Assembly (NCBI GenBank): GCA_016210565.1
Contig: JACQUA010000286.1
Span: 1-64,000 of the forward strand
From: Chloroflexota bacterium
Lineage (GTDB): Bacteria; Chloroflexota; Dehalococcoidia; JACQUA01
Reading direction: 5' to 3'
DNA length: 64,000 bases
The notes under the pieces are model-generated. The model searched no databases. It saw only the letters and a list, made by a program, of their open reading frames with translations, and was not told the DNA's origin. The translations under genes and the position numbers were made by a program. The number at the start of each line of letters is the position of its first letter. Within the stretch, counting starts at the first letter, position 1. Below, piece after piece: positions 2,059 to 56,131 of the stretch.

Positions 2059-5000
2059 CTACGCGCCTGCGGTCCTCCCGAAGCTAATACCGATCAGCGC
2101 CAGATCGTAAACATCGACAATGCCGTCATGATTGACGTCGGCGTCGGGGTTGAAGCCCGGTTCGCCGGCGCGCTTATTAAAGGAGGCCGCCAGGAGGTCC
2201 AGGTCCGCGTTGTTGACAGCGCCGTCATGGTTCACATCCCCTGGCTGGAACCCCGGGCCCGGAGATGGCTGCGGGGTGGGCGTTGGCGTGGCCGCGGGTG
2301 TCGTGCCTTTGATAGCCAGGCTATGGTAGTCGCCAGCGCCCACGGCCACGGCGCCGGTGAGGCCGCTGGGCTGGACTGGCACATTGCTATTGGTTGGCGT
2401 GCCGTTGCCCAACTCACCCTCAGTGTTAGCGCCCCAGGCCCAGACGGTGCCGTCGCCCTTGAGCGCCAGGCTATGGAAGGAGCCCCCGGCCACGGCCACG
2501 GCGCCGGTGAGGCCAGTGGCCTGGACGGGGACATTGCTACGGGTGAAGGTCCCGTTGCCCAACTGACCGTAATAGCTATCACCCCAGGCCCAGACGGTGC
2601 CGTCGTCCTTGACCGCCAGGCTATGGTGGTCGCCCCCGGCCGCGGCCACGGCGCCGGTGAGTCCGCTGACCTGGACGGGGCTACTGGTGCTGGTGGTAGT
2701 GCCGTCGCCCAACTGGCCGGAGGCGTTGTATCCCCAGGCCCAGACGGCGCCGTCGCCCTTGGCCGCCAGGCTATGGTAGACGCCCCCAGCCACTGCCACG
2801 GCGCCGGTGAGGCCGCTGACCTGGACGGGGACATTGCTATCAGTAGTGGTCCCGTTGCCCAATTGACCGTAGTTGTTATGGCCCCAGGCCCAGACGGTGC
2901 CGTCGCCCTTGACCGCCAGGCTATGGTAGTCGCCCGCGGCCACGGCTACGGCTCCGGTGAGGCCGCTGACATTGACCGGAACAGAGCTGTAGGTCGATGT
3001 TCCGTTGCCCAACTGGCCGTAGGAGTTGTTGCCCCAGGCCCAGAGGGTGCCGTCGTCCTTGACTGCCAGGCTATGGTAAGCTCCCGCCGCCACGGCTATG
3101 GCGCCGGTGAGGCCGCTGACCCGGACGGGGATATTGCTGCGGGTGAATGTCCCGTTGCCCAACTCGCCGGCGTCGTTGTCGCCCCAGGCCCAGACGGCGC
3201 CATCGGCCTTGAGCGCCAGGCTATGGGAGTCGCCCCCGGCCACGGCCACGGCGCCGGTGAGGCCGCTGACCTGGACCGGCACATTGCTATTAGTCGTGGT
3301 CCCGTTGCCCAACTGGCCGGTAGGGTTGAATCCCCAGGCCCAGACGTCTCCTGCCGGGCGCGCCGGCGAAGGGGTTGGGCCGGGTGATGGCGACGGGGAT
3401 GGCGAGGGAGAGGGGCTGGGCGACGGGGATGGAGAGGGGGTAGGCGTCGGCGAAGGCGCCGGAGTAGGTGAAGGGCTAGGCGAGGAGGATGGGGACGGCG
3501 ATGCCGTTGGGGTTGGCAGGGGCGCGGTGCTCTTTATGGCCAGGCTGTGGTGCCTTCCCGCAGCTACGGCCACGGCGCCGGTTATGCCGCTGACCTGGAC
3601 CGGGACATTGCTGCTGGCGGTTGTCGTGTTGCCCAACTGGCCGTAGAGGTTGTAGCCCCAGGCCCAGACGGTGCCGTCACCCTTGAGCGCCAGGCTGTGT
3701 GCGGCTCCGGCGGCCAGAGCTGTGGCTCCGGCGAGGCCGCTGACCTGGACCGGGACGTTGCTGCCGGTGTTCGTCCCGTTGCCCAACTGGCCGAGGAGGT
3801 TGTAGCCCCACGCCCGGACGGTGCCGTCGCTCTTGAGGGCCAGGCTCAGGGATCCCCCGGCAGCCACGGCGATGGCGCCGGTGAGGGCGCTCACCTGGAC
3901 GGGGATATTGCTGCGAGTGAATGTCCCGTTGCCCAACTCGCCGGCGTCGTTGTCGCCCCAGGCCCAGACGGTTCCGTCATCCTTGACCGCCAGGCTATGG
4001 TCCAGGCCCGCGGCCACGGCTACGGCTCCGGTGAGGCCGCGGACCTGGACCGCGTTAGTGGTGCTGGCGGCAGTGCCGTCGCCCAACTGGCCGGAGGCGT
4101 TGTAGCCCCAGGCCCAGACGGAGCCGTCGCCCTTGAGCGCCAGGCTATGTTTGTCGCCCCCGGCCACGGCTACGGCGCCCGTGAGGCCGCTGACCTGGAC
4201 CGGGATATTGCTGCTGGCGAATGTCCCATTGCCCAACTGGCCGGAGGCGTTGAAGCCCCAGGCCCAGACGGTGTTGTCATCCTTGAGCGCCAGGCCATGG
4301 AAGCCTCCGGCAGCGACGGCTATGACGCCGGTGAGGCCGCCGACCTCGACCGGGACATTGCTGTTGGCCGTCGTCCCGTTGCCCAATTGCCCGGCGTCGT
4401 TGAGGCCCCAGGCCCAGACGGCGCCGTTGCTTCTGACCGCCAGGCTATGGGAGTTGCCCCCGGCCACGGCTATGGCGTCCGTGAGGGTACTGACCTGGAC
4501 CGGGATATTGCGATTGGTAGTCGTCCCGTCGCCCAACTGGCCGGTGGGGTTGTAGCCCCAGGCCCAGGCGTCTCCTGCCGGGCGCGCCGGCAAAGGAGTT
4601 GGGCTGGGTGACGGTGATGGCGTGGGTGGAGGAAACGGAGTCGGAGAAGGGCTGGGAGTGGGTGCTGGTGATGGCGAAATAGTGGGAGTAGGGCTTGGCG
4701 GGGCGCCGCCAAGGTCTTGGAAATAAAGATTGCCGGCCCAGGACGGGGAGCGGGAGGTGATGTCGGCATAGACCAGCTTCGGGCTGTTCAGCAATGCCGT
4801 CCCGGTTTTTCTGGGGAAGCGCGGGGCGACGATTTCATGTCCGGCGCCAAAGCCGGTCACGGGGCTGGCAACCCCCCAGAGTCCCCCCAGCGGCTTTTCC
4901 CTGATGTACAGCTCGCCGTATTTGTCCGTTGCCGTTTCCCTCAGGTTGTAGACCAGCTTGAGGTTCCCCGTTGCGTCTCCGTGCATGTCGGCGTTCCACA

Positions 5001-6006
5001 TCTTGAAGCCGGCCGGTGCGGCGAAAACTGCTTCTCTGAGGCCCCAGTCCTGGCGATGATAGATGGTCTGGCCGTCGTCGCCCTGGTAGGCCGCGTGCAG
5101 GCGGCCCATGCCGTCGTAAGCGAGCACGGTGGGCTGCATGAAGTCGGTGGAAACCTGGTCCACGGTCGTGGCGGGCCCCCACACGCCCGATACGCGGTCG
5201 ACGTGGTAGACCGTGTTTCTGTTGGGGTGGGTGCTCCCGTTGGCGGCCGTGTTGTGGGAGAAGACGGTTATCCTGTCCGACGGTCCCAGGATGGCGTTTT
5301 CGTGATAGGTGGTTCCGGCGTCGACAGCATTTTCGTGGACATGGCTGGCCATGACTTTGGCCGACCAGGTCCCCGATGGCCCGGCGCCCCTGACGAACTC
5401 CCACACAGTCCCGCCGTAGGCGTGCCAGCCGTAGTGGGCTGCGATGAGATGGACCTGGTTGGCGCTATCGGCCAAGGCCTTGATGGTCCTGATGCCGTTG
5501 TTGGTTGCTCCGAAGTCGGAGTCATGCCCGTTGCCAGCGTAGCCGGTGTTGGACTGAAGCGTCTGGACCGTCCATGGACCAGAGAGGTTCGAGACATTGC
5601 TGGCCACGCTGAGCTCATAGTTCCATTCCGATCCTCCAGAGGTGGGAGGGACGTCAAAATAGTAGAAAACGAAGACGGCGCCGTTGTGGTCCACCGTAAG
5701 CGTTGGCCCCAGTACCGCGTTGGGCGCGGTGAGAATCGTCTGGACCGTCCAGGTTGCGCCGGAATCCGCCGAAAAAGCATATTTCAAGTCAGCGCCGTTG
5801 CCAAACGCCAGGTGAAACTTGCCGGTGGCGTCTTCGACGAAGTCGTGTCCGCCCCAGTTGGAGATGGGCGAGATGAGGACGGGACCGGCAGCGGCGGCAG
5901 GCTTGCCGCCGAAAGTGATGGCCGGCCAAAGAGCCTGTAATACGATGACCGCGACGAGAAAGAGGGTGAGTGAAGACCGGAATGCCTTGTCGAAACTGCT
6001 CTTCAT
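2059..6006 (-). CDS. Large secreted protein: N-terminal sialidase/BNR-like region, two 7-repeat RCC1 propellers separated by a Pro/Ser/Thr linker, C-terminal dockerin
   Basis: 1315-aa ORF; repeated VWAWGxNxxGQLGNGTxxxSNVPVQVSGLTGAVAVAAGxxHSLALKxDG (7 + 7 copies counted); C-terminus GDVNHDGAVNNADLDLLAASF...DVNHDGIVDVYDLALIGISFGR; N-terminal hydrophobic signal. Confidence 0.9.
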   Translation of the reverse strand: MKSSFDKAFRSSLTLFLVAVIVLQALWPAITFGGKPAAAAGPVLISPISNWGGHDFVEDATGKFHLAFGNGADLKYAFSADSGATWTVQTILTAPNAVLGPTLTVDHNGAVFVFYYFDVPPTSGGSEWNYELSVASNVSNLSGPWTVQTLQSNTGYAGNGHDSDFGATNNGIRTIKALADSANQVHLIAAHYGWHAYGGTVWEFVRGAGPSGTWSAKVMASHVHENAVDAGTTYHENAILGPSDRITVFSHNTAANGSTHPNRNTVYHVDRVSGVWGPATTVDQVSTDFMQPTVLAYDGMGRLHAAYQGDDGQTIYHRQDWGLREAVFAAPAGFKMWNADMHGDATGNLKLVYNLRETATDKYGELYIREKPLGGLWGVASPVTGFGAGHEIVAPRFPRKTGTALLNSPKLVYADITSRSPSWAGNLYFQDLGGAPPSPTPTISPSPAPTPSPSPTPFPPPTPSPSPSPTPLPARPAGDAWAWGYNPTGQLGDGTTTNRNIPVQVSTLTDAIAVAGGNSHSLAVRSNGAVWAWGLNDAGQLGNGTTANSNVPVEVGGLTGVIAVAAGGFHGLALKDDNTVWAWGFNASGQLGNGTFASSNIPVQVSGLTGAVAVAGGDKHSLALKGDGSVWAWGYNASGQLGDGTAASTTNAVQVRGLTGAVAVAAGLDHSLAVKDDGTVWAWGDNDAGELGNGTFTRSNIPVQVSALTGAIAVAAGGSLSLALKSDGTVRAWGYNLLGQLGNGTNTGSNVPVQVSGLAGATALAAGAAHSLALKGDGTVWAWGYNLYGQLGNTTTASSNVPVQVSGITGAVAVAAGRHHSLAIKSTAPLPTPTASPSPSSSPSPSPTPAPSPTPTPSPSPSPSPSPSPSPSPSPGPTPSPARPAGDVWAWGFNPTGQLGNGTTTNSNVPVQVSGLTGAVAVAGGDSHSLALKADGAVWAWGDNDAGELGNGTFTRSNIPVRVSGLTGAIAVAAGAYHSLAVKDDGTLWAWGNNSYGQLGNGTSTYSSVPVNVSGLTGAVAVAAGDYHSLAVKGDGTVWAWGHNNYGQLGNGTTTDSNVPVQVSGLTGAVAVAGGVYHSLAAKGDGAVWAWGYNASGQLGDGTTTSTSSPVQVSGLTGAVAAAGGDHHSLAVKDDGTVWAWGDSYYGQLGNGTFTRSNVPVQATGLTGAVAVAGGSFHSLALKGDGTVWAWGANTEGELGNGTPTNSNVPVQPSGLTGAVAVGAGDYHSLAIKGTTPAATPTPTPQPSPGPGFQPGDVNHDGAVNNADLDLLAASFNKRAGEPGFNPDADVNHDGIVDVYDLALIGISFGRTAGA
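2310..3345 (-). repeat. RCC1-encoding ~150-bp tandem repeat block (C-terminal propeller)
   Basis: Recurrent 'ccccaggcccagacggtgccgtc...gccaggctatgg...ggcgccggtgaggccgctgacctggac' about every 150 bp, 7 copies. Confidence 0.85.
3535..4575 (-). repeat. RCC1-encoding ~150-bp tandem repeat block (N-terminal propeller)
   Basis: Same 150-bp periodicity, 7 copies; separated from the other block by a SPSPSP/TPTP linker (about 3350-3530). Confidence 0.85.
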
Positions 6007-6281
6007 TGTTTCATCTCCAGCGAATGCAGGACAGGTGGAAAAAAACCCGTCTTATATTACCCCTTTTTCCGGCTTTGTCAATACGCAGGTGCAAAAAAGG
6101 TTCAAAAACGGTATACTCAAAGAGGAAATGACGAAGCCCGAATGACGAATGACCAATCTAAAGAGGAAATGACGAAGTCCGAATGGAGTTGGCGTCAGCG
6201 TCCGCCACACGGATTTCTTTGTGCCCCTTGTGCTGTGTCTTTGTGTGAGACCATGCACCACGATTTGGTGCGCTTGTATTA

Positions 6282-8654
6282 GTGTATGAGATGACGGAAC
6301 ATTTCACGGTCTGTCCCTTTGCCGGCTGTCACCAGGACTGCGTGCTCAAAGTCGCGGTCCAGGACGGACGGGCGGTCAAAGTCGAATCGGTGGAGATGCC
6401 CGGCGAGCCGGGCGAAAGGCGCGCCTGTCTACGCGGCCTGGCTTCGCTGCGCTGGTTGTACCATCCGGACCGGCTGAAATACCCGTTGAAAAGGACAGGG
6501 GAGAGGGGAGAAGGGAAATGGGAAAGGGTTTCCTGGGATGAGGCGCTGGACGGGATTGCGTCGAAGTTGCTCGAGATAAGAGAACGATATGGGTCAAGGG
6601 CGGTGAAGGTCATGCCCGGCGGCAGCAGCTCGGTGGGGACGGTCATGGGGCGGCTGGCGGGGTTGCGTTTCGCCAGCGCCTGGGGAGCCGGCGGCGCCTT
6701 CGAGGGGAGGGGCTACACCTCGGACGGCGGCATACCGGCCGCCCTGTTGCTCGTCCTCGGCGACTCTTACCAGAGCCACGACTGCCGGGACTACCTGAAT
6801 TCGAAGATGGTGATTCTCTGGGGAGGCAACCCCGCCGAGACCTGCATCCCGGAGATGAGATATTACCTGGACGCCAGGGAAAACGGCGCCCGGATTGTAA
6901 ACGTCAGCCCTGTCTACCATGCCAGCGCGGCGAAAGCCGACTGGTGGATTCCGGTAAAGACGGCCACGGACGCCGCCCTGGCCCTGGGGATGCTGAACGT
7001 CATCGTCCAGCGGGGGCTTTACGACCGCAGTTATCTATTGCGGCACACTGTGGGGCCGTTTCTGGTACGGTCGGACACCGGGCGTTTCCTCCGGGAGAAG
7101 GACATCAGCGCTGGGGGCTCGGACAGGCCGCTGGTCTGGGAGGTTGAATCCCCCTTAATCCCCCTTTTTCAAAGGGGGAGAGCCGGAGCGGATGTAATCC
7201 CGCCTGTTGAAAAGGGGAGAGCCAGACCCCATGATGAGCCGGGTGTCGGTCCCGCCCTGTCGGGTAGCTTCAATGTCCAGGGCATCGAATGCCGGACGGC
7301 GTTCGACCTTCTGAAGGAAAGGGCGGCGGAGTACCCGCTCGACAAAGCGTCTGAAATCTGCGGACTGCCCGCGGCCACCATTGAGCGCCTTGCGGTGGAA
7401 TATGCTACCAACAAGCCGGCGGCTATCAGGCTGTTTCATGGGATGGCCCGCACTCTCAACAGCAACCTGGCCCTGAGGGCAATCATTACCCTGGGGGCCG
7501 TTACCGGAAACATCGGGGTGAGCGGGGGCGGGGTCTCCCAGCCGGACTGGTCCGGCTATCCGATAGAGCTGAATAGCCGGGGTGTCTCCTCGCCGAAGGG
7601 TGCGCCCGGAGTCAGCACGTTGCCGGGGACAAAGAACTCGCTCCGGGGATGGCGGGCCATAGCTGATGGAAAACCGTACCCGGTAAAGGCGCTGCTCATC
7701 GCCTACCAGAACCCTTTCCAGAACTACGGGAACGTGAGCCGCTACCGGGAGATATTATCGCGAATGGACCTGGTCGTGGTCTCGGATGTGTTCATGACCA
7801 TGACGGCCCGGTTCGCCGATTACGTCTTGCCGGAGGCCAGCACGTTCGAAAGGGCGGACATCGCCATCAGTAAAAACCACCTGGTCCGGATGGAGAAGGC
7901 CGTCGGCCCCGCTGGTGAGGCCAGGACACCCCTGGACATCTGGGGAGGCCTGGCCACGAGGGTAGGGCTTGGCCGGTTCTTCGAGTCCACTGAGGCGGAG
8001 TTGTTCAGGGTATTCCTGGATTCCGGACATCCGTCAGTGGCCGGGATCACCCTGGACAGGCTGGAGCGGGAGAAGGTCGTCCGGGCGAATGTGCCCCTGG
8101 CTGCCTACGTGCCGTTTGCGGATAAGGACTTCCCGACGGCGACGGGGAAGATCGAGTTCTATGTGGAGTCGCAACTGGAGTTTGGCGAGGAATTGCCGTT
8201 CTACCGCGAGCCGCTGGAAAGCGCCCCTCCGGGGTCGGGAAGCGGTTCCCTGCTACGCCTCTTGACTATCAAGACAAAGAACCTGGTGCAATCCCAACTG
8301 GCCAACGTCGACTGGATGCAGGGGCCTGATCCGGCCCCGTACCTCGTCATCAGCCCGGCCGATGCCGGCGCTCGCGGGATCGGGAGTGGAGAGATGGTGA
8401 GGGTCTTCAACGACCGGGGGGACCTGCGAATCAAGGCCAGGGTGAGTTCCACAGTGCCGGCCGGGACGGTCAACGTGTATCACGGTCCCTGGCCGGAGCA
8501 TTTCGTCAAAGGGCACTATAATCAGTTGCTACATGCCATCGACGACCCGAATGCGATCAACCCCGCCCTGGAAACAGACCAGATCGTGAAGGACACGAAA
8601 GCCGCCGCGCATATGGTCCATTACGATGTGCTGGTCAGGGTGGAGCGGGGGTAG
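6282..8654 (+). CDS. Molybdopterin-dependent oxidoreductase catalytic subunit (DMSO reductase superfamily)
   Basis: 790 aa; N-terminal Fe-S motif CPFAGCHQDC...RRACLRG; GNPAETCIPEMRYY, NPFQNYGN, C-terminal molydopterin dinucleotide-binding-like region; followed by a 4Fe-4S subunit. Confidence 0.9.
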   Translation: MYEMTEHFTVCPFAGCHQDCVLKVAVQDGRAVKVESVEMPGEPGERRACLRGLASLRWLYHPDRLKYPLKRTGERGEGKWERVSWDEALDGIASKLLEIRERYGSRAVKVMPGGSSSVGTVMGRLAGLRFASAWGAGGAFEGRGYTSDGGIPAALLLVLGDSYQSHDCRDYLNSKMVILWGGNPAETCIPEMRYYLDARENGARIVNVSPVYHASAAKADWWIPVKTATDAALALGMLNVIVQRGLYDRSYLLRHTVGPFLVRSDTGRFLREKDISAGGSDRPLVWEVESPLIPLFQRGRAGADVIPPVEKGRARPHDEPGVGPALSGSFNVQGIECRTAFDLLKERAAEYPLDKASEICGLPAATIERLAVEYATNKPAAIRLFHGMARTLNSNLALRAIITLGAVTGNIGVSGGGVSQPDWSGYPIELNSRGVSSPKGAPGVSTLPGTKNSLRGWRAIADGKPYPVKALLIAYQNPFQNYGNVSRYREILSRMDLVVVSDVFMTMTARFADYVLPEASTFERADIAISKNHLVRMEKAVGPAGEARTPLDIWGGLATRVGLGRFFESTEAELFRVFLDSGHPSVAGITLDRLEREKVVRANVPLAAYVPFADKDFPTATGKIEFYVESQLEFGEELPFYREPLESAPPGSGSGSLLRLLTIKTKNLVQSQLANVDWMQGPDPAPYLVISPADAGARGIGSGEMVRVFNDRGDLRIKARVSSTVPAGTVNVYHGPWPEHFVKGHYNQLLHAIDDPNAINPALETDQIVKDTKAAAHMVHYDVLVRVERG
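7147..7223. repeat. CCCCCTTTTTC/GAAAGGGGG palindromic repeat, two degenerate units, inside a CDS
   Basis: aatcccccttaatccccctttttcaaagggggagagcc...gtaatcccgcctgttgaaaaggggagagcc; matches intergenic copies near 23942, 24112 and 63335. Confidence 0.85.
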
Positions 8655-8818: not shown

Positions 8819-9337
8819 ATGAACTCGAAATACGCTTTTATCTTTGACCTTCGCCGGTGCATCGGGTGCGAGACCTGCACCATCGCCTGCAAGGTGGAAA
8901 ACAACCTGGAGCCGGGAGAGAACTGGATAAGAGTCCACACGCTGGGGGATATCGGGAAGCAGACCTACCCGGAGGTGCGGATGTCTTTCCGTCCGGTGAC
9001 CTGCATGCACTGCCGGAATGCCCCGTGCCTGACCGCCTGCCCGGACGGGGCCATCGTCAGGCGGGAGGATGGCATTGTGTTCATTGACGGGAGCAAATGC
9101 AGCGGCTGCGAGCTATGTTTACCGGCCTGCCCGTACAACGTCATTCATTTCGACGCGCGGAAAAGGCTGGCATCCAAGTGCGACTTTTGCCGGGGGAGGA
9201 TTGACCGCGGCCTGGAGCCTTTCTGCGCCAGGGAATGCCCGGTGGGAGCGATCCGGTTCGCAGAGGGGGGTAACGGGGAGGGCTATGCGCTGCTGCCCGA
9301 AGCCGGCGCCGGCCCGGTGCACCGGTACGTCGAGTAG
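8819..9337 (+). CDS. 4Fe-4S ferredoxin-type electron-transfer subunit (DmsB/NrfC-like)
   Basis: 172 aa; CIGCETCTIACK, CMHCRNAPCLTACP, CSGCELCLPACPYN, CDFCRGRIDRGLEPFCARECP. Confidence 0.9.
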   Translation: MNSKYAFIFDLRRCIGCETCTIACKVENNLEPGENWIRVHTLGDIGKQTYPEVRMSFRPVTCMHCRNAPCLTACPDGAIVRREDGIVFIDGSKCSGCELCLPACPYNVIHFDARKRLASKCDFCRGRIDRGLEPFCARECPVGAIRFAEGGNGEGYALLPEAGAGPVHRYVE

Positions 9338-21657: not shown

Positions 21658-23796
21658 GTGTCTGATATCATCGTGAAAGCGCGGTCCCTGGCCCGTTGCC
21701 GGATGGCGGTTGCCGTATTGGTGGCGATGGCCATCATTGCGGCAGGGTGCATCGAGAACCCCTGGTTGACGCCCACTCCCTCCCCGACGCCGACGCCGCC
21801 GCCGGTGTTCGATATCCCCCTGGCCATTCCGGATATAAACCCGGCCGCGGCGGGAAGAGATAACAGGGGGGCCATTGTCCCGCTGACGCCGGGGGGAAAG
21901 ATTTCCATCGTCACCGGGGCGCAAGGGACGATGGACGTGGCCCTGCCTGTGGCGCTGCCCAGAGGGGCGACCCTCGCCAGTTTCAGTGACCCCTTCACGG
22001 GGGTTGTCCTGTCCAACGATGGACTGATAATACCGATACGGGACATAGCCGGCAAGTTGCGGATGACGCTCCAGGCCACGGTGAGGCCGCTCGGCGGCAC
22101 CGGGACCTCGGCTGAGGGAAGGATCGAGAAACTGGAGCTGGAAACGGCGGCGGTGTCGGCGGACCTGTCGGACCCCCGGGTAGACAGGGTGTCGTTTCAG
22201 GTTAAGACACAACTGATGTCGCTTCCCGATGGGGCGGCTCTCCGGATTATGCTGGCCAAGGCGCCGAACCCGGCCGCCATGAACGCCTTTACCCTGGCGG
22301 CCACGCGCATGGGTAACAGGTTGCGTGACGTTGCCTTTGTGGCGGAGGTCACCAAGACGAGGCTGGTGGACGGAAGGGATATCGGGCCCGGGACGGTGAC
22401 CTTCCAGGTGGGGAGACGCTGGGCGGACAGCTACCCGCCGGGCAATGTGGCCGTGGCGGTGTTGTCGGATGACGGCAGCGTCGAGCTGCTGCTCACCCGG
22501 TTCGAAGGGTACACCCTTGAAGACACGGCAACGTTTGCGGCCCAGACCAAACGGGGAGTGTCCACTTTCGGCCTGGTGGCTATGGACAACCCGTCGCCAA
22601 CCCCCACACCCACGCCGTCATTCTATCAGCTCAACGCGAGCGTCTATCCGCCCGACTACGGACGGTTGAGCGTCGATCCGCCCAGTCCGACAGGGAGGTA
22701 TCTGGAAGGATCTCGCGTGGTCCTTGGCGCTTCGCCCGGGCCGGGCGCCAGCTTCGAGCGGTGGGAAGGGGATGTTACCGGGAGTCAAAACCGGCTGGAG
22801 ATAGTCATGGACTCAAATAAGACTGTCTCGGCGGTCTTCAGGCGGCTGGCCTTCACGCTGACCGCCGGCGTCATACCTCAGAGCGGCGGAATGATCGGCA
22901 TTGAGCCTTACCTTAGCGAATATGAGTACGGGACGCGGGTGACCCTCACGGCGCAGCAAGAACCGGGGTTTGTGTTCCGGACCTGGAGCGGCGACCTTAC
23001 CGGGACCGCCAACCCGATAACGATAGTCATGGACGGTCCCAAGTCTGTGACCGCCAATTTTGCGGTGGTGCGGGTCAGCTATAGCACATCGGTCAACCCG
23101 GCGCGCTCCGGCTTGATAGCCCCCGCGAGCGGCACCGCCGATATCGGCACCCAGATCAGTCTTTTTGCCACGCCGACGGAGGGGTATGTGTTCTCTTCCT
23201 GGAGCGGTAACGTTCCCGCCGGGTCCACGGATAATCCCCTCAACGTGAGACTGGACCGGGACCTTAACATTGTAGCTAATTTTTCCCGGGCCCGCTTTAC
23301 CCTGACGACCCAGACGTTTCCCATCACCGCCGGTAGCGTCAGTCCGAGCGGTGGGACATTCGAGTACGGTCAAAGCGTGACTTTGACGGCCGTGGCCAAC
23401 CAGGACTTCCTGTTCAACGGCTGGGGCGGAGACATCTCCGGCTCGGAGAATCCAAAAACCATCACCATCACCAAGAACACCAGGGTAGATGTCAATTTCC
23501 TGGCGCAACGCTACACCTTGAGCGTCCGTATCAATCCCCCGGAAGGAGGGTTTGTCAGCCCCATCACCGCAGGGGTGTTTCCCAGCGGCACCATCGTCAC
23601 CCTGGAAACCCAGGAATTGCCGGGGTATATTTTCGATTCCTGGTCAGGCGATCAGATCAGCTTCTCGCGGTTCATCTCGGTGCAGATGACCAGGAACGTG
23701 TTCCTGACGGCTAACTTCCGCCTGAGGCCCACCCCTCCGCCTCCGCCTCCGCCGACTCCAACGCCCACGCCCCCGCCGGGCGGGCCGGGCGGCTGA
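21658..23796 (+). CDS. Paralogous surface lipoprotein with divergent InlB B-repeat-like domains (short Pro tail)
   Basis: 712 aa (GTG start); ...[54 protein letters not shown]; colinear with 18424..21126. Confidence 0.85.
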   Translation: MSDIIVKARSLARCRMAVAVLVAMAIIAAGCIENPWLTPTPSPTPTPPPVFDIPLAIPDINPAAAGRDNRGAIVPLTPGGKISIVTGAQGTMDVALPVALPRGATLASFSDPFTGVVLSNDGLIIPIRDIAGKLRMTLQATVRPLGGTGTSAEGRIEKLELETAAVSADLSDPRVDRVSFQVKTQLMSLPDGAALRIMLAKAPNPAAMNAFTLAATRMGNRLRDVAFVAEVTKTRLVDGRDIGPGTVTFQVGRRWADSYPPGNVAVAVLSDDGSVELLLTRFEGYTLEDTATFAAQTKRGVSTFGLVAMDNPSPTPTPTPSFYQLNASVYPPDYGRLSVDPPSPTGRYLEGSRVVLGASPGPGASFERWEGDVTGSQNRLEIVMDSNKTVSAVFRRLAFTLTAGVIPQSGGMIGIEPYLSEYEYGTRVTLTAQQEPGFVFRTWSGDLTGTANPITIVMDGPKSVTANFAVVRVSYSTSVNPARSGLIAPASGTADIGTQISLFATPTEGYVFSSWSGNVPAGSTDNPLNVRLDRDLNIVANFSRARFTLTTQTFPITAGSVSPSGGTFEYGQSVTLTAVANQDFLFNGWGGDISGSENPKTITITKNTRVDVNFLAQRYTLSVRINPPEGGFVSPITAGVFPSGTIVTLETQELPGYIFDSWSGDQISFSRFISVQMTRNVFLTANFRLRPTPPPPPPPTPTPTPPPGGPGG

Positions 23797-23863: not shown

Positions 23864-24225
23864 GTAAGGCGGGTTAAGCGCAGAGGTGGTGTTTCGGCTG
23901 TGGGGTGGCTGTGCGAACCCACCATTATTTCTCCACCCGCGCTCCCTCCCCCTTTTCCAAAAGGGGGATACAGGGGGATTGTCTGCCGTTGGAAAAAGGC
24001 TCTTCAAATCCCCTCAACAGGCTGTCTAAAAAGGAATTTGCTCATATCTGAGCGGGTCGAGGTGTCAGATATAAACATATACTCCCCTGGAGTACTTTTT
24101 GGACAGCCTGTTAATCCCCCTTTTTCAAAGGGGGAGGCGGATGATGGCGAAGGCCACGTAGAAGATGGTGGGTTCGCGCGACCACCCCCTGCCAGCGCCT
24201 CCCCATCGCGCTTAACCCACCCTAC
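23864..24225. repeat. Composite palindromic element (GTAGGGTGGGTTAAGCGC family) enclosing other repeats
   Basis: gtaaggcgggttaagcgc...gctgtgcgaacccacca ... ggtgggttcgcgcg...gcgcttaacccaccctac. Confidence 0.75.
24016..24112. mobile_element. MITE-like inverted-repeat element (~97 bp)
   Basis: Ends AACAGGCTGTCTAAAAAG ... CTTTTTGGACAGCCTGTT: 18-bp terminal inverted repeats with one mismatch, sitting within a CCCCCTTTTT palindrome region. Confidence 0.6.
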
Positions 24226-26674: not shown

Positions 26675-26735
26675 ATAAGTAGCGAGTAGCCAGTAGCCAG
26701 TAGCCAGTAGCCCCCGCCCCGCGGGACTCCAGACT

Positions 26736-36285: not shown

Positions 36286-36591
36286 TTTACAAACCTCCAA
36301 TTGAAATGACGAATGACGAAGTCCGAATGACGAATCAAATTCGAATGACAAATGACGAATTGCCGAAAGGACTCCAGAAGCTAGTAGACAGAAGCAAGAA
36401 TGTAGATGCCAGAAGTCAGAATCGAGAAGCTGGTAGCCAGAAGTCAGAAGAGGTACGGCAGTCCTAAATTCTGGATTCTGGATTTCGGATTGTAATCCTC
36501 TGGTCGTTCGTCATTCGGTACGGTTATCAACCCCGCCGGAGTGGGCCATTACATGCTACTCATCACCGCAGGGTGAAGTGCAAGGTATATT

Positions 36592-40081: not shown

Positions 40082-41938
40082 ATGGCAAAGCTACTGTCGG
40101 GAAACGAGGCGCTGGCCCTGGGCGCTTACCGCGCCGGGGTCAAGGTAGCTGCCGCCTACCCTGGCACCCCATCCAGCGAGATACTGGAAACCCTGGCGAA
40201 ATTCAAAGATATCTACGCCGAATGGTCCGTCAACGAAAAGGTGGCCATGGAGGTAGCGATGGGGGCCTGCTACGCTGGGGCCCGGGCCCTGGTTTCCATG
40301 AAGCAGGTGGGGCTTAACGTAGCCAGCGACCCGTTCATGGCGGTGTCCACCACCGGCGTCAATGCGGGTCTCGTGGTCATCAGCGCCGACGATCCCGGCA
40401 TCCACAGCTCCCAGGACGAGCAGGACAACCGCCACTACGCCCCTTTTGCCAAAGTGCCCATGCTGGAACCCAGCGACAGCCAGGAAGCCTGCGAGTTCAT
40501 GGCCCTGGCTTACGATATGAGCGAGCGGTTTGACACGCCGGTGCTGGTGCGCACGACCACGCGGGTGTCTCATTCCAAGTCGGTGGTCCGGGCAATCCCC
40601 CTTGATCCCCCTTTTGCAAAGGGGGAGAGGTTGGAAATCCCCCTTAATCCCCCTTTGCGAAAGGGGGAAAGAGGGTTCAGGCGCGACCTGGCGAAGTACG
40701 TCATGCTGCCCACCAGCGCCAGGATGAGGCGACCTCTCATCGAAGAGCGCCTGGTCAATCTGGCCGGATTCGCCGAGACCGTCCCGGTCAACCAGGTCTT
40801 CTCGGGTGACCCCAGCCTGGGGATCGTTACCAGCGGCATCGCCTACCAGTACGCCCGCGAAGTCTTCCCGAAGGCTTCCTTTCTCAAGCTGGGCATGACC
40901 TATCCCCTGCCGCGGCGCCTGATTGCGGATTTCGCCGCCACGGTAGACCGGCTGCTGGTCATCGAGGAGCTGGACCCTTTCCTGGAACAGGCCATTCTGG
41001 CTATGGGGATCAGGGTCGCCGGCAAGGAGTTCGTTCCCCGGACGGGGGAGTTGAACCCCGGCATCATCGAGGAGGCCGCTCACAAAGCCGGTCTCCTCAA
41101 GCGGCCGAGGCGCAAGACTGAACCGGCGCTGGTCCTGCCCAAGAGGCCGCCGCTTCTCTGCGCCGGTTGTCCTCACGCCGCGACGTTCTTTGTTCTCAGC
41201 ACCTTGGGACAGCGCGCCCGGCTGCCCGGTTCGAAAAGCGATGTACCAGGAGAGTCCGGGCTGGTCATCACCGGGGATATCGGTTGCTATACCCTGGGCG
41301 CTTATCCGCCCTACGATGCCATGGATACCTGCGGCTGCATGGGCGCCAGCATCGGGGCCGCGATGGGGATGGAGAAGGCAGGCATAAAGAGGAAGAGTAA
41401 GGTAGTGGCCGTTATCGGCGATTCCACCTTCATGCACTCCGGGATAACGCCCCTGGTCAACGCGGTCTACAACCAGGGCAAGATAACCGTGATTATCCTG
41501 GACAACAGCACCACGGCCATGACCGGTCACCAGCCCCATCCCGGCACCGGCGTCTCGGCGCAGGGACAGCCCACTCAGGCCGTCTATCTGGAAAGCCTCA
41601 TCCGGGGAATGGGAGTAAGCGAACTGAAGGTGGTGAATGCTTTTGATATCAGGGAAATCAGGAGCGCCATCAGGAACGCTGTGAATAGCGACCAGCTTTC
41701 GGTGGTCATTGCCCGAGGCGCCTGCTCGGTGCGACTGCCCGGCGGGGTCAATCCCAGGGCTGTAGACGATAACAAGTGCGACCAGTGCGGCGTCTGTATT
41801 CTCATCGGCTGCCCCGCCATCCGTACCGAAAGCGGAGAGGCATTGATCGAAGGGTCTCTTTGCGTCGGCGACCCCTGCGGCCTGTGCGAGAGCATTTGCC
41901 CGAAGAAGGCGATAGGGAAAGTAGCGAGTAGTGAGTAG
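40082..41938 (+). CDS. iorA: Indolepyruvate ferredoxin oxidoreductase, alpha subunit
   Basis: 618 aa; GNEALALGAYRAGVKVAAAYPGTPSSEILETLA; RTTTRVSHSKSVV; RPPLLCAGCPHA; GDIGCYTLGAYPPYDAMDTCGCMGAS; C-terminal 2x4Fe-4S. Confidence 0.96.
   Translation: MAKLLSGNEALALGAYRAGVKVAAAYPGTPSSEILETLAKFKDIYAEWSVNEKVAMEVAMGACYAGARALVSMKQVGLNVASDPFMAVSTTGVNAGLVVISADDPGIHSSQDEQDNRHYAPFAKVPMLEPSDSQEACEFMALAYDMSERFDTPVLVRTTTRVSHSKSVVRAIPLDPPFAKGERLEIPLNPPLRKGERGFRRDLAKYVMLPTSARMRRPLIEERLVNLAGFAETVPVNQVFSGDPSLGIVTSGIAYQYAREVFPKASFLKLGMTYPLPRRLIADFAATVDRLLVIEELDPFLEQAILAMGIRVAGKEFVPRTGELNPGIIEEAAHKAGLLKRPRRKTEPALVLPKRPPLLCAGCPHAATFFVLSTLGQRARLPGSKSDVPGESGLVITGDIGCYTLGAYPPYDAMDTCGCMGASIGAAMGMEKAGIKRKSKVVAVIGDSTFMHSGITPLVNAVYNQGKITVIILDNSTTAMTGHQPHPGTGVSAQGQPTQAVYLESLIRGMGVSELKVVNAFDIREIRSAIRNAVNSDQLSVVIARGACSVRLPGGVNPRAVDDNKCDQCGVCILIGCPAIRTESGEALIEGSLCVGDPCGLCESICPKKAIGKVASSE
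40594..40677. repeat. Two tandem 42-bp CCCCCTT/AAGGGGG palindromic units in frame inside iorA
   Basis: aatcccccttgatcccccttttgcaaagggggagaggttgg + aatcccccttaatccccctttgcgaaagggggaaagagggtt; encodes AIPLDPPFAKGERL/EIPLNPPLRKGERG. Confidence 0.9.
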
Positions 41939-42109
41939 CGAGTAGTGAGTAGTGAGTAGCGGCACGGCGCCCCGTGCCCTGCGGGGAACCGAAAACCACG
42001 AATCAACACGAATTGACACGAGTGTGTCCGGTCCTTTCAATTCGTGTCCATTAGCGTTCATTGGTCGTTCAATGTTTCCCTTCCCACCGCCTGCACGACT
42101 TGATAGTTA

Positions 42110-55814: not shown

Positions 55815-56131
55815 GACCAGTGGCACAGGCGTACCCGCCTGTGTTCGCGGTATTTTGCCGATGTTGCGCCTGTTTAGTCGCGACGGACGTACTCTCTGGG
55901 CTGAAACCGGACTTGCCCGGAGGTCCAGCCTATTCTGTTCTGGCCCTATGCGGTGTCTCACAGGCACGGTGGCCTGCGGTACCGGGGGCTAGGTGGGCCA
56001 GGGGGAATTTGATTTTTGGGGTGGTATTGAATAAAATTCTAGCCAAGAGAGGTTCCTGACTGCCGGAATTTGATCTCAAGGAGGTGGCTGTTCGAGACAA
56101 GGATACCTCCTAAGAACAAGGAGTCAGTTTA

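Follow-up and report, generated by a model that had tools for sequence, protein, structure and literature searches.

Is the palindromic sequence at 7147-7223, which lies in frame within the gene of a molybdopterin oxidoreductase, a mobile repeat that entered a pre-existing enzyme and was tolerated there, or does the peptide that it encodes serve its host? The window analyzed here is a stretch of 64,000 nt from a Dehalococcoidia (Chloroflexota) genome, a fragmented MAG of 6.53 Mb in 419 contigs with 6.4% contamination. In our view the segment very probably arose when a short, high-copy, selfish palindrome of the REP/RPE-like kind inserted in frame, to be neutrally tolerated in a protein loop or linker.

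A palindromic repeat read within a molybdoenzyme gene

The host ORF contains both a molybdopterin oxidoreductase domain (PF00384, E = 8.6e-47) and a molybdopterin dinucleotide-binding domain (PF01568, E = 2.5e-19) and is, judged by these two domains, a molybdoenzyme of the DMSO reductase family. Its top NCBIfam subfamily was DMSO_red_II_alp (TIGR03479), at a score under that model's cut-off, and its relatives in the PDB were 4ydd and 5e7o. The features at this locus are as follows.

6282 to 8654, + strand: catalytic subunit of a DMSO-reductase-family molybdopterin oxidoreductase, 790-aa ORF
7147 to 7179, + strand: full palindromic unit AATCCCCCTTAATCCCCCTTTTTCAAAGGGGGA, 33 nt (from the sequence, the family consensus, an nhmmer score of 50.8 bits and the DNA fold)
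7149 to 7214, + strand: encoded insert SPLIPLFQRGRAGADVIPPVEK, residues 290-311 (from the alignment and pLDDT)
7196 to 7219, + strand: degenerate second copy, hairpin part alone, AATCCCGCCTGTTGAAAAGGGGAG (from the sequence and the family consensus)
8819 to 9337: ORF of a putative 4Fe-4S ferredoxin-like subunit downstream of the molybdoenzyme, assigned by eye from cysteine motifs

The full unit is composed of a 5' half-arm (7147-7156), a linker and a hairpin of 9 bp with a 3-nt loop. The second copy lies 39 nt (13 codons) downstream and therefore shares its reading frame. The original prediction had assigned 7147-7223 to a repeat family, and both the sequence and its membership proved as described, in frame in the 790-aa ORF. 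The translation around the insert runs ...WEVESPLIPLFQRGRAGADVIPPVEKGRARPHDE... and takes in the stretch WEVESPLIPLFQR. Upstream of this gene, the window also encodes a large RCC1-like protein (2059-6006, − strand) whose 50-aa (150-nt) repeats form two blocks, with low-complexity PSPSP linkers between them, and which has a dockerin-like end.

Alignment with nine homologues, the nearest of which is 64% identical, placed a net 21 additional residues in the window's protein, with gap edges uncertain by a few codons. Exactly these 21 residues were missing from all nine, with no equally long unrelated segment in their place, as expected if the sequence is an insertion. In the orthologue from G001, another genome of the same taxonomic family (64% identity), the corresponding stretch reads WDGSGGRAVPHD, compared with WEVESPLIPLFQRGRAGADVIPPVEKGRARPHD in the window. 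The solved perchlorate-reductase relatives carry a different loop of their own at the insertion point, and because of this we regard the site as a variable loop. An AlphaFold2 model, built with the ten-sequence alignment, had a mean pLDDT of 79, compared with about 38 for residues 291-310 (all below 50), which lie between the strands at 283-287 and 314-316. The insert is thus predicted to form a low-confidence, disordered loop that links two strands of an otherwise confidently modeled fold.

Copy number, architecture and spread of the family

Searching the whole genome with a 23-nt hairpin pattern, allowing up to 3 mismatches, yielded 260 forward and 273 reverse matches (533 in all, and fewer actual copies, since a palindrome can match both strands), compared with 0 in a reversed-sequence control. 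A profile HMM built from 71 seed copies and run on a first sample of 1.61 Mb, with a cut-off of at least 14 bits, recovered 124 non-overlapping copies with scores of up to 55 bits, compared with a maximum of 11.2 in reversed sequence. Given the 533 pattern matches against none, and HMM scores that separate likewise, the repeat is not a product of chance. Altogether, the analysis covered about 29% of the genome, in a sample that favored long contigs with known copies. The consensus, AATCCCCCTtaaTCCCCCTTTt.cAAAGGGGGAga, places the half-arm AATCCCCCTT at the 5' end, followed by a short linker and the hairpin TCCCCCTTTnnnAAAGGGGGA. Copies also lie between genes in the window.

23947 to 23980, − strand: intergenic copy in the opposite orientation
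24113 to 24135, + strand: intergenic copy, hairpin part, between the gene calls at 23796 and 24243
63345 to 63362, + strand: intergenic copy, slightly degenerate, between the gene calls at 63203 and 63440

Adjacent copies no more than 120 nt apart were arranged head-to-head in 21 cases, tail-to-tail in one and as direct tandems in 16. The head-to-head dimers, of roughly 90-125 nt, fold as a single long structure, as exemplified by those at L091:16340-16464 and L076:16736-16848 (z = −5.0 and −4.6, respectively). The family is abundant in the window's genome and in G001, and copies were absent or few in the remaining 58 genomes of the class comparison. Among 300 further genomes from the phylum, just 2 had exact matches, and an exact 36-nt match was found elsewhere in one Dehalococcoidia MAG and one Deltaproteobacteria MAG. 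Similar peptides presumably occur in proteins of other phyla as well, such as cyanobacteria, and a plasmid search using the encoded peptide gave nothing meaningful. A literature search for the translated peptide of a companion repeat gave no match.

Because the copies are dispersed and their sites are empty in relatives of other genera, we infer that the unit transposes. It would spread as selfish DNA, probably as the head-to-head inverted dimer, which may be processed in trans by a nuclease or transposase that recognizes DNA hairpins. The movement of REP dimers and REPINs is ascribed to RAYT (Y1 HUH) transposases (PMC3733652, PMC3116915), and the dimers seen here are organized in the same way. 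In this genome, none of the seven Y1_Tnp (RAYT-type) loci carried a copy of the unit within about 1.4 kb, and several carried a different REP (ACAGGC..GCCTGT); mobilization by these RAYTs was rejected. The mobilizing enzyme is likewise a gap for CGTC REPs (Di Nocera et al., PMC3733652). The unit also seems not to be the end of a longer transposon, since copy pairs 0.5-3 kb apart were in the '-+' arrangement in 2 of 17 cases. As regards a possible MITE nature, the dimers have inverted arms, and the search for transposon-length pairs gave none with an inverted bias. When 20 stretches of G001, the nearest genome, which belongs to another genus of the same family, were compared with the G000 sample for filled and empty intergenic sites, synteny was too eroded.

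Host genes, reading frames and competing explanations

Genes were called with an ad-hoc codon-usage caller, and copies that lay 90 nt or more from the ends of a gene were counted as in-gene. By this definition, 20 of the 124 copies are in-gene, forming 11 clusters in ten genes. Beside the molybdoenzyme, Pfam identified the hosts as IorA, RecG (two sites), an SNF2 helicase, a cytochrome c, TruB, a BcrAD/DUF2229 activase, LigD, a MiaB-like radical-SAM enzyme and ArgJ. One of these genes lies in the window.

40082 to 41938, + strand: IorA, indolepyruvate ferredoxin oxidoreductase alpha subunit (PF01855, PF02775)
40594 to 40626, + strand: first copy of the unit in iorA, encoding IPLDPPFAKGE
40636 to 40668, + strand: second copy in iorA, in tandem at 42-nt spacing, encoding IPLNPPLRKGE

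Eight hosts (the molybdoenzyme, IorA, RecG, the SNF2 helicase, the activase, TruB, the MiaB-like enzyme and ArgJ) were compared with relatives, which lacked the insert in each of them; RecG site 1, which falls within a poorly aligned linker, was not clear-cut. The window's genome carries 15-16 additional residues in IorA, 9 at RecG site 2, about 14 in the SNF2 helicase and about 60 in the activase. In ArgJ, residues 171-197 are extra (+27), and in G001 the matches on either side adjoin with codon precision; the MiaB-like enzyme, whose gene holds three copies of the unit, has 82 aa where G001 has 10 (about +72); and the gap between two matched parts of TruB spans 45 aa compared with 21 in G001 (+24). 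Inserts in LigD, the MiaB-like enzyme, TruB, the activase, cytochrome c, the SNF2 helicase and at RecG site 1 lie between or outside Pfam domains. With ten enzymes decorated and eight compared with insert-free relatives, the genome offers a natural experiment on the tolerance of loop insertions. Apart from one opposed copy in TruB, the copies inside genes occur singly or in direct tandem rather than as inverted dimers. Within the activase fusion (L115:1746-6086, − strand), three composite in-frame units, CHSERSEESPxxIPLNPPLSKGG(T), join two unrelated repeat families (TCATTCTGAGCG.. and CCCCCTT..) that were amplified together.

The iorA tandem translates as IPLDPPFAKGERLEIPLNPPLRKGER / IPLDPPFAKGERLEIPLNPPLRKGE, in a sense frame other than that used in the molybdoenzyme, which bears out the earlier claim of two different frames. 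In the genome sample, each of the three sense frames occurs among the in-gene units (IPLNPPxxKGE, SPLxPLxxRGR and NPPxSPFxxGG), and two units are read antisense. For annotators, database peptides such as SPLIPLFQRGR or IPLNPPLSKGE are to be read as translated repeats and not as domains. The unit had been described as stop-free in at least two frames, and its copies are indeed open in more than two, yet random DNA of this genome is equally so. The mean number of open frames out of six was 4.29 for in-gene copies, 4.30 for intergenic copies, 3.70 for shuffled units and 4.49 for random genomic 36-mers. Stop-free variants are thus not enriched among the genic copies in this six-frame count, contrary to what had been proposed. 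A special stop-free design of the unit was likewise rejected (4.30 for real copies compared with 4.49 for the 36-mers), the linkers of in-gene copies being the same in kind. Openness in several frames is simply an ordinary property of short stretches in a genome of 60% G+C.

Of the sampled DNA, 63% belongs to gene interiors, yet these hold 11 of the 93 clusters (P ~ 1e-24), with 61 of the 93 being intergenic; an additional 0.30 Mb picked for its copies reinforced this depletion, with 0 of 52 copies well inside a gene. We conclude from the depletion that most genic insertions have been removed and that the remainder sit mainly in loops and linkers. Most insertions into genes would be lethal or deleterious and purged, and the survivors would be those that left the frame intact and struck a surface loop or an inter-domain linker, adding about 9-72 residues of disordered peptide. 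The second, degenerate copy in the molybdoenzyme may have arisen by partial duplication or by a second insertion. Tolerance after selection explains the in-gene copies, and a function of the peptide is not needed for it. One observation counts against neutral tolerance as the full explanation: 18 of the 20 in-gene copies are in the sense orientation (eight genes with sense copies only, one mixed, one antisense). Frame openness explains this bias weakly (summed open frames of intergenic copies, 2.4 sense compared with 1.9 antisense), and the bias may reflect chance or be a mechanistic trace.

The original prediction had left room for the element as a source of new peptides. An in-frame insertion into unrelated enzymes in different frames stands; the recruitment of the peptide for partner binding, stability or regulation, with the element serving as a source of peptide modules, we judge very unlikely. 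Copies are kept in frame in several enzymes and have been amplified in tandem as protein repeats, as in the three units of the activase and the three copies of the MiaB-like gene. However, different enzymes acquired unrelated peptides from different frames, and the strong gene depletion, the lack of enrichment for stop-free variants and the predicted disorder of the loop all speak against recruitment.

About equally improbable are a pseudogene that is not expressed and an insert produced by misassembly or contamination of the MAG. Its 419 contigs and 6.4% contamination invite the suspicion, as do the many G001 copies near contig ends, where they are expected if repeats break assemblies. Yet the molybdoenzyme ORF is open on both sides of the insert, with normal coding scores and 64% identity to its orthologue, and in-frame inserts of this sort recur across ten genes, including several housekeeping genes (ArgJ, TruB and RecG, for each of which the genome yielded one match or one of full length). 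A regulatory DNA or RNA element within the operon, such as an attenuator or mRNA-stability hairpin with an incidental peptide, would suit a stable hairpin and the effects on mRNA stability and termination attributed to REPs elsewhere (PMC3733652), but it is very unlikely, as no T-run follows the hairpin and in-gene positions vary by gene, tracking protein loops and linkers rather than transcript position.

Relation to known palindromic elements and other repeats of the genome

Insertion of a selfish palindrome, the reading that we prefer, has precedents. Rickettsia palindromic elements (RPE; Ogata et al. 2000), as described in PMC2229807 and PMC10969869, lie in frame in unrelated and often conserved genes as well as between genes, and one enzyme decorated by an RPE has been shown to be translated and active. 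The present unit resembles them as a palindromic repeat that is in frame in unrelated conserved genes, absent from orthologues and presumably tolerated; it differs in that RPEs are rickettsial and measure 105-150 bp, whereas here a 33-nt unit (dimers of about 90-125 nt) is based on C/G runs and resides in Dehalococcoidia. Small translated-repeat peptide insertions from a 2005 study, as cited in PMC2229807, are also comparable, but their sequence, length and host differ.

A dispersed, high-copy stem-loop of 20-40 nt, the size class of REPs, is what we found (33 nt, 124 copies in 1.61 Mb). Like the GTAG/CGTC REPs, which are 20-40 bp stem-loops of high copy number, the family is mostly intergenic with head-to-head dimers predominating. 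Unlike them, it has neither a GTAG nor a CGTC tag by the stem of its consensus, possesses the 5' half-arm and has no RAYT gene found adjoining it. REPINs (Bertels and Rainey 2011, PMC3116915) consist of two inverted REP hairpins with a short variable spacer, and the inverted hairpin pairs seen here similarly fold with their spacer as one large hairpin; however, a cognate RAYT was not found at the seven Y1_Tnp loci, and in-gene copies are not inverted dimers except for the opposed copy in TruB. The unit is a new family of a kind already known, belonging neither to the tagged REP super-family, for want of a tag, nor to the RPEs, given its length and host. The literature searched described no protein-tolerated palindromic repeat for the class Dehalococcoidia of the Chloroflexota.

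GTAG/CGTC REPs have been reported within genes for DNA repair, DNA ligase, RNA helicase and tRNA pseudouridine synthase B (Di Nocera et al. 2013, PMC3733652), and the in-frame hosts here include RecG, LigD, an SNF2 helicase and TruB. DNA-repair and tRNA-modification enzymes recur as hosts (RecG, LigD, SNF2 helicase, TruB and the MiaB-like enzyme). Hosts of the DNA-repair type accounted for three of ten genes (P ~ 0.006 against an assumed 4% background, in a test whose category was taken from PMC3733652 and whose gene list was known beforehand). The repeated appearance of TruB and of DNA-repair genes deserves notice, but the basis is ten genes. That unrelated palindromic families in unrelated phyla repeatedly reach the same enzyme set (TruB, DNA ligase, RecG-like and other repair helicases), through preferred landing sites or selected loop growth, appears unlikely; if true, TruB, LigD, RecG and the SNF2 helicase (of ten genes) would add an independent case to the 2013 list.

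A further palindrome of this genome, ACAGGC-N(2-7)-GCCTGT flanked by a GGTACC-like sequence, forms a family of its own and is present as 190 exact hairpins in the 1.61 Mb (reversed control, 0), including those at 14503-14534, 55955-55986 and 60324-60355 of the window. It adjoins RAYT-like Y1_Tnp genes in L057, L059 and L062 and is probably the RAYT-linked REP of this genome. At L056 (contig C172, about 6077-6334), a RAYT-like Y1_Tnp match is in frame within a frame of ~1112 codons resembling a DNA methylase. Short tandem arrays of 7-nt periodicity (AGTAGCC / CTACTGG type), at 26677-26724, 36368-36450, 41919-41966 and 60347-60408, apparently represent another repeat family.
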